Assembly: GCA_019358875.1 (NCBI GenBank)
Contig: JAHHIF010000037.1
Span: forward strand, 1-64,000
Direction: 5' to 3'
Origin: Symplocastrum torsivum CPER-KK1
Lineage (GTDB): Bacteria > Cyanobacteriota > Cyanobacteriia > Cyanobacteriales > Coleofasciculaceae
Length of the DNA stretch: 64,000 nucleotides
In this document: positions 30,797-32,658 of the stretch, in pieces
Layout of the letters: every line of letters begins with the position of its first letter
How positions within the stretch are numbered: position 1 is the stretch's first letter
Program-made: the position numbers and the translations under genes
Notes under the pieces: generated by a model
The model's database searches: none
Seen by the model: the letters and a program-made list of their open reading frames with translations, nothing else
Told to the model about the DNA's origin: nothing

Positions 30797-31738
<942 letters not shown>

Positions 31739-31894: not shown

Positions 31895-31930
31895 AGGGAA
31901 GCAAGATAGATGAAGGTCTTCCAGTAACAA

Positions 31931-32152
31931 TCATAGCTGGGTAAATGGATTTTCTTGTAATTGAAACAAAGGTTTGCGTCCACTTCCGGGATGTGGTGCT
32001 GGATTTCCTCTTATTGTAGTTTTTGCCGCTAGCAATTGGGTAGCAGAAGCATCCTGTAATTGTGCTATTCTCCAGTCGGTGATGACCTGAGAACCAACAG
32101 AAAGTGGAATTGCTAGTAGAGTAAACACAATAGTAGAGGTAAGAGTACGCAT
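31931..32152 (-). CDS. PatX-like HetR-inhibitor peptide precursor, motif variant PGSGR
   Basis: A 73-codon gene from ATG 32152. The N-terminus MRTLTSTIVFTLLAIPLSVG is a hydrophobic export-like segment. Near the C-terminus is NPAPHPGSGRKPL, aligning with the RGSGR pentapeptide of PatS/PatX but with Pro in place of the first Arg. PatX, as known in filamentous cyanobacteria, has just this layout: hydrophobic N-terminus plus an RGSGR motif near the C-terminus, found together with HetR. The gene is 234 bases upstream of hetR on the same strand. An imperfect inverted repeat lies 11 bases before the ATG, shared with the next peptide gene. An upstream TTG start at 32227 would extend it through the repeat and is less likely. 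Whether PGSGR still binds HetR is unknown. Confidence 0.7.
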   Translation of the reverse strand: MRTLTSTIVFTLLAIPLSVGSQVITDWRIAQLQDASATQLLAAKTTIRGNPAPHPGSGRKPLFQLQENPFTQL

Positions 32153-32163
32153 AACAAAAATTT

Positions 32164-32189
32164 GTGTCAGGGTTTCTAGTCCCTGATAC
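32164..32189 (-). promoter_or_regulatory. Inverted repeat upstream of the PGSGR peptide gene
   Basis: On the plus strand GTGTCAGGG (32164-32172) faces CCCTGATAC (32181-32189) around TTTCTAGT; eight of nine positions pair. On the minus strand it reads GTATCAGGG-ACTAGAAA-CCCTGACAC. Its GGG-N8-CCC core recalls the short inverted GGGG/CCCC site bound by HetR at Anabaena hetP, but the match is loose. TCCTGA, one base from the DIF1 core TCCGGA, lies about 25 bases upstream on the same strand. Confidence 0.5.
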
Positions 32190-32435
32190 GAGATTTCTGC
32201 TATGGGATCAGGACAAACTCTCGTCAAAGCTTACTTGCAGAGCGGCAAAACTCTGGTAATTTTTGAGTAGCGCGATCGCTTCTTACCATAGTCTTGCCGC
32301 TCACAGTCGCGGGTGTGCTGAAGGACTCTACATTCACCGTTGCCCCACGGAAATGCTACCCGAAGAGCAAAGCTTAGCTTACTATCTCCTCCTACACCTT
32401 CCCAAAAATTCATTGGTGCATGTATAATTGGGGAT

Positions 32436-32528
32436 TCAGCGTCCGCTACCACGATGAGGAGCCTTGTTGTCTTCTTGCTGAGTTTTAGCCGAGAGCGATT
32501 GACCAAAGAAAGTAGTGTAAATGCTCAT
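32436..32528 (-). CDS. 30-aa PatS/PatX-like peptide ending in HRGSGR
   Basis: From ATG 32528 the minus strand encodes 30 residues beginning MSIYTTFFGQ and ending NKAPHRGSGR, followed by TGA at 32438-32436. An exact RGSGR pentapeptide at the C-terminus is the hallmark of PatS, the diffusible inhibitor that binds HetR; PatX carries the same motif. It sits about 740 bases upstream of hetR on the same strand, next to the PGSGR gene. The APHRGSGR end parallels APHPGSGR in that gene. Unlike normal PatX it lacks a hydrophobic N-terminus; an in-frame GTG at 32582 would add 18 residues but no membrane segment. It may be a PatX copy with an internal deletion or a PatS-like cytoplasmic peptide. No clear ribosome site is seen. 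Confidence 0.72.
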   Translation of the reverse strand: MSIYTTFFGQSLSAKTQQEDNKAPHRGSGR

Positions 32529-32538
32529 AGCAGATGTC

Positions 32539-32566
32539 CGTATCAGAGTTTCTAGTACCTGATACG
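32539..32566 (-). promoter_or_regulatory. Perfect inverted repeat upstream of the HRGSGR peptide gene
   Basis: CGTATCAG (32539-32546) is the exact inverse of CTGATACG (32559-32566), ending ten bases before the ATG. The loop (AGTTTCTAGTAC) matches the loop of the repeat at 32164-32189, so the two upstream regions are homologous. A second perfect repeat TTCCTGA/TCAGGAA lies next to it at 32570-32576 and 32584-32590. Likely an operator or promoter element; the protein that binds is inferred, not shown. Confidence 0.55.
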
Positions 32567-32658
32567 GAGTTCCTGAAGGCACATCAGGAATAACTTCCTT
32601 GGAAGTTTATTTTCTTGTGCGAGAATTGGTGTTAAAATTACAGATTTTACGAATGTAA

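Follow-up and report, generated by a model that had tools for sequence, protein, structure and literature searches.

A signal-less, patX-derived gene ending in HRGSGR upstream of hetR, paired with a signal-bearing copy, in Symplocastrum torsivum CPER-KK1: a probable export-independent HetR inhibitor

In the 64,000-nucleotide stretch of DNA of the filamentous cyanobacterium Symplocastrum torsivum CPER-KK1 that was analysed here (the window), the signal peptide and the HetR-binding motif of PatX appear, from their sequences, to be partitioned onto two tandem genes, which we call copy A and copy B, upstream of hetR, a master gene of development. Copy A, a 30-codon gene that encodes HRGSGR at its very end, is well supported as a real gene derived from patX. 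It very probably encodes a HetR-inhibitor peptide, as the initial annotation had proposed, and it is conserved as a small gene. Taken together, the analysis makes it probable that copy A is an export-independent, PatS-like HetR inhibitor that arose from PatX, and that copy B is exported without binding HetR. We infer the expression of copy A, the cytoplasmic location of its product, its inhibition of HetR and the fate of copy B from sequence comparison.

That PatX and PatS act on HetR is established. In the usual view, PatX depends on export and on processing in the periplasm, and PatS came later, as an invention of heterocyst-forming strains. Published counts of PatX demanded a signal sequence (PMC12756182), so that genes such as copy A would be missed. 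No prior report of the split pair, of a signal-less PatX or of the second gene described below was found in the open literature that was searched; Elhai and Khudyakov 2018 lay outside this scope, and a prior mention there is possible. The conserved division into a tag-only and an export-only gene offers a natural test of what each part of PatX does. The features of the locus, all on the minus strand, are as follows.

30797..31696, minus strand: hetR, the presumed target (PRK13245 equivalog, 569.5 bits)
31931..32152, minus strand: copy B, a 73-aa PatX paralogue, MRTLTSTIVFTLLAIPLSVGSQ...APHPGSGRKPLFQLQENPFTQL, with a Sec-like hydrophobic N-terminus and the degenerate motif HPGSGR
32173..32213, minus strand: copy B promoter, with the same elements as that of copy A; the second of two matches in the genome
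32436..32528, minus strand: copy A, a 30-aa peptide gene without signal peptide, ending in HRGSGR and then TGA; intact in five genomes
32537..32568, minus strand: inverted repeat TCCGTATCAG-N12-CTGATACGGA in the promoter or leader of copy A, between the DIF1-like box and the ATG
32549..32589, minus strand: copy A promoter, with TCCTGA (DIF1-like, -61 from the ATG), TATCAG and TAGAAA; position conserved

Translation of 32528-32436 on the minus strand gave the 30 codons MSIYTTFFGQSLSAKTQQEDNKAPHRGSGR followed by a stop, in which HRGSGR occupies residues 25-30 and provides the RG(S/T)GR motif of PatX. Copy A lies upstream of hetR on the same strand, with 739 bp between its stop and the hetR ATG, in agreement with the frame and the distance of about 740 bp that were read initially. 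From base composition, chance alone would yield HRGSGR with a following stop 0.05 times over the two strands of the 7.8-Mb genome, and about 6e-6 times in the 2 kb that precede hetR, counted on a single strand. A search of the genome found HRGSGR encoded at copy A only, and a pattern search found exactly two true frames that end in RGSGR, both of them conserved genes with DIF1-like promoters. An intact classical PatX was not found in this genome in the searches made. An HRGTGR-coding stretch elsewhere (G000:C103) sits in a 22-codon frame and was put down to chance. The GTG at 32582, which would give 48 aa, was rejected as a start, since the extra codons belong to the conserved promoter, whose reading frame differs at other loci; translation thus likely begins at the ATG at 32528.

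The maximum 12-residue hydropathy of copy A is 0.63, as compared to at least 1.8 in PatX proteins, so that it lacks a recognizable Sec signal, and the absence of a hydrophobic N-terminus noted at the outset is confirmed. Against the NCBIfam PatX model (NF047413), copy A scored 24.0 bits over positions 45-66 of 69. This was its sole match among 18950 NCBIfam models, and PatX was the best and only NCBIfam match for the copy A proteins of all five genomes in which the gene was found; a Pfam scan of the small proteins gave no match. The expectation that automatic annotation would miss the gene was also borne out, as it is too short and falls below the model's cut-off of 30 bits.

The initial annotation described a single gene, which stands as copy A, but overlooked its tandem partner, in which the signal is kept and the motif lost. 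Copy B (full translation of 32152-31931, MRTLTSTIVFTLLAIPLSVGSQVITDWRIAQLQDASATQLLAAKTTIRGNPAPHPGSGRKPLFQLQENPFTQL) is placed between copy A and hetR. It has a hydrophobic, Sec-like N-terminal signal and scored 27.1 bits against NCBIfam PatX over positions 1-67 of 69, also below the cut-off of 30. The DNA ahead of the copy A ATG resembles that ahead of the copy B ATG. RGSGV-like codons that follow copy B near 31897 are absent in relatives and were taken as chance.

The hetR neighbourhoods of relatives, where a search for the frame had been recommended, contain the pair in four other genomes (G006, G015, G005 and G003; G005 is represented by contig L032 of the uncultured Coleofasciculus MAG92). 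In all five genomes, copy A has 30 codons, and its last seven residues are PHRGSGR with an immediate stop. Its motif codons carry at least six synonymous and no non-synonymous substitutions among the five, which has a probability of about 3e-4 if the motif is unconstrained (26% of random single changes are synonymous). A broken frame in relatives, with the RGSGR codons not conserved, had been named as the result that would count against the gene; we found the opposite. The codons ahead of the last seven vary much, and the N-terminal residues are weakly conserved. Pairwise dN/dS over the whole of copy A was 0.16-0.43, for short sequences of which some pairs are near saturation.

Elsewhere in the family, wherever the region could be read, hetR is preceded by a single long PatX that combines a signal sequence with HRGSGR; that of the sister genome G012 scored 40.9 bits against NCBIfam PatX. 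Aligned to long PatX, copy A matches at the N-terminus (MSIYT / MRIYS) and in the linker and motif, with one gap of about 30 residues that spans the hydrophobic core. The simplest account of the pair is that patX was duplicated and that the copies then underwent reciprocal loss. As to one or several origins of the split, the backbone of a HetR codon tree was unresolved (supports 23-57), and addition of miaB, within reach in only seven genomes, brought no gain.

Long PatX proteins of sister lineages (L029-L031, L035-L037, L039 and L121) have a degenerate first motif (ARGERR, SPGGQR, NRGCPR or HRGSDR) and an intact second one, and the copy A motif aligns with the first. Elsewhere (L033, L034, L038 (Symploca MAGs), L061 and L107), PatX carries three to five tandem intact RGSGR units along with degenerate ones. 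These units, of about 21 residues or more, give a prohormone-like build in two separate lineages.

The pattern TCCTGA-N15..22-TATCAG-N3..12-TAGAAA has two matches in the 7.8-Mb genome, ahead of copies A and B only, and none in the reversed control. PatX was reportedly defined by Elhai and Khudyakov in 2018 with a DIF1-like motif within about 69 nt upstream, and copy A has TCCTGA at -61. TCC[TG]GA was present 57-69 nt ahead of the ATG in 42 of 44 patX-type genes, versus 1% of background ATGs in the window; of the two genes without it, one adjoins an assembly gap and the other is copy B of G003. All readable copy A genes have intact promoters, and one copy B promoter has been lost among the five genomes. 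In Anabaena, DIF1 (TCCGGA) promoters drive patX, patS and hetR through HetZ (PMC7377430), and in Leptolyngbya BL0902, which is non-heterocystous, patX-hetR has a predicted DIF1 promoter as well (PMC11298460). We infer that the TCCTGA variant is functional in this genome. The inverted repeat at 32537-32568 recurs in patX promoters across many lineages, and in L057 its two arms have changed correspondingly (CGTAATCAG/CTGATTACG); it is a possible operator or leader hairpin.

The HetR encoded here has the Hood-domain target residues R223, E253, E254 and D256. R223 is required for the interaction with PatS, and R223W abolishes it (PMC7476756). No match to nifH above the cut-off was found in the genome, so that no heterocyst pattern would be at stake in this host, which very probably makes neither nitrogenase nor heterocysts.

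We propose that patX was duplicated in tandem and that an internal deletion of signal peptide and linker then gave rise to copy A, which would have retained the promoter of patX, a few N-terminal residues and HRGSGR as its exact C-terminus. The product would stay in the cytoplasm, where it may be trimmed from the N-terminal side only or may bind untrimmed. Its terminal (H)RGSGR would fill the Hood domain of HetR and take HetR off DNA, like PatS in Anabaena. Copy B, still exported, would have given up HetR binding; it may be drifting or may serve a separate function that depends on export.

The PatX hexapeptide HRGTGR bound HetR at 88 nM and blocked its DNA binding, PatX activity needs export, with processing by the periplasmic PatP, and Nostoc PatX without its signal sequence neither blocked differentiation nor interacted with HetR in a two-hybrid assay (PMC12756182). 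By this last result, the activity of copy A should suffer, unless having the motif as the exact C-terminus offsets the missing signal. Of the two peptides reported on either side of HRGTGR (PMC12756182), one, GPDIIFWAHDR, looks like a piece of maltose-binding protein, the fusion partner, so that cleavage of PatX at its C-terminal side may be less well shown than stated. PatS has 13-17 residues and an RGSGR end, and its processing is believed to be cytoplasmic (PMC4133259, PMC7476756).

In a survey for which lineages were collapsed by hand and the signal was judged by hydropathy, signal-less, hetR-adjacent RGSGR genes were present in six lineages: that of copy A and at least five others (Microseira wollei with two MAGs, L045, L055 and L081; L054, which is borderline at 1.62; L057; L060; and L076). 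RGSGR was the exact C-terminus in 6/6 signal-less versus 5/29 signal-bearing lineages (Fisher p 3e-4). These counts fit the idea that a tag which is neither exported nor trimmed in the periplasm has to be synthesized with its C-terminus already in final form. Since the motif ends the protein in every signal-less lineage, copy A most likely supplies a HetR-inhibiting tag inside the cell.

That copy A instead leaves the cytoplasm by a non-Sec route, such as an ABC exporter of the HetC type, and undergoes maturation by PatP outside, so that it would still function as an exported PatX, seems unlikely to us. Such a route would accord with the extracytosolic maturation of PatX in Nostoc (PMC12756182), and for PatS, too, peptidase-exporters of this type have been considered (PMC4133259). 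However, copy A has no obvious leader or double-glycine-type site, and the loss of the signal together with the exact C-terminal motif in every lineage seen suggests a changed route of maturation. It is rather improbable that copy A, though expressed and conserved, encodes a peptide that bypasses HetR in this non-heterocystous host. The expression effects of a patX deletion in Leptolyngbya BL0902 were largely independent of hetR (PMC11298460); against this, copy A is linked to hetR, and both the exact HetR-binding motif and the Hood-domain residues are conserved.

The evolution of copy B bears on two further explanations. Its frame and hydrophobic start were kept in 5/5 genomes, with pN < pS in all pairs, as would be expected if copy B were the active gene rather than copy A and its altered hexapeptide (HPGSGR etc.) a new signal. 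However, the hexapeptide reads HPGSGR, EPGSKR, EPGSKR, RPASPP and HRGARR in the five genomes, with no common replacement, and conservation of copy B is compatible with activity of copy A too; we regard this explanation as very improbable. The protein is also the more variable of the two (pN 0.36-0.47 outside the close pair). The loss of its motif in all five genomes and of one of its promoters, along with the high variability of copy A ahead of the last seven codons, could be read as decay of both patX duplicates, with the copy A motif surviving without function. Decay is most improbable, as the motif has changed only synonymously, length and stop are constant, the readable promoters are intact and there is no HRGSGR gene elsewhere in the genome.

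For copy A as a PatX-derived cytoplasmic inhibitor, the evidence says that it is a PatX by descent and promoter and a PatS by architecture. Thus, of the initial alternative between a PatS-like peptide and an internally deleted PatX, the deleted PatX holds, but the either/or does not. Like PatX (NF047413), copy A lies upstream of hetR, has a DIF1-like promoter at about -61 and a MSIYT/MRIYS start, and carries a linker remnant ahead of HRGSGR, so that homology extends outside the motif. Unlike PatX, it lacks a hydrophobic signal, has 30 rather than about 65-90 residues, ends exactly with the motif and is paired with a signal-bearing, motif-less copy. It shares with PatS of Anabaena/Nostoc PCC 7120 (13-17 aa) a very short, signal-less form with RGSGR as the exact end, found in 5/5 genomes, and a DIF1 promoter. 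In contrast to PatS, it has 30 residues, is hetR-adjacent and descends from patX, in a host with no nifH above the cut-off; the two can be aligned, by eye, at the motif only. HetN likewise acts on HetR through RGSGR, but it is a large ketoacyl reductase with an internal motif and is unrelated to copy A.

The genome contains two signal-less RGSGR-terminal genes, copy A and one that is unlinked to it, outside the window:

G000:C9:54676-54819 (locus L177/L178), minus strand: second RGSGR-terminal gene, MCNYMTVF...EDDNRGSGR and stop, 47 aa

This gene has no signal sequence, carries TCCTGA at -61 and matched no NCBIfam or Pfam model. Relatives were found in 15/22 genomes of the family, all with a DD[NTG]RGSGR end followed by a stop, and no convincing one outside the family among 391 genomes of the order. 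It is plausible, just short of probable in our view, that exported PatX has repeatedly become a PatS-like cytoplasmic peptide, here by duplication and reciprocal loss and beside this second gene. If so, non-heterocystous cyanobacteria would run separate channels for self-inhibition and neighbour signalling around HetR, and the recurrent signal-less forms with an exact C-terminal tag would mark a concrete route from PatX by which PatS could have arisen.

In G001 and G013 (L191, position 2502, plus strand; L193, minus strand), a signal-bearing PatX-like ORF with a degenerate RGCGR lies about 1 kb downstream of the second RGSGR-terminal gene and forms a short/long pair at this second locus. In G301:C1, RGSGR-coding stretches with identical scores occur at seven places inside 185- and 72-codon frames, and are perhaps a repeated element.
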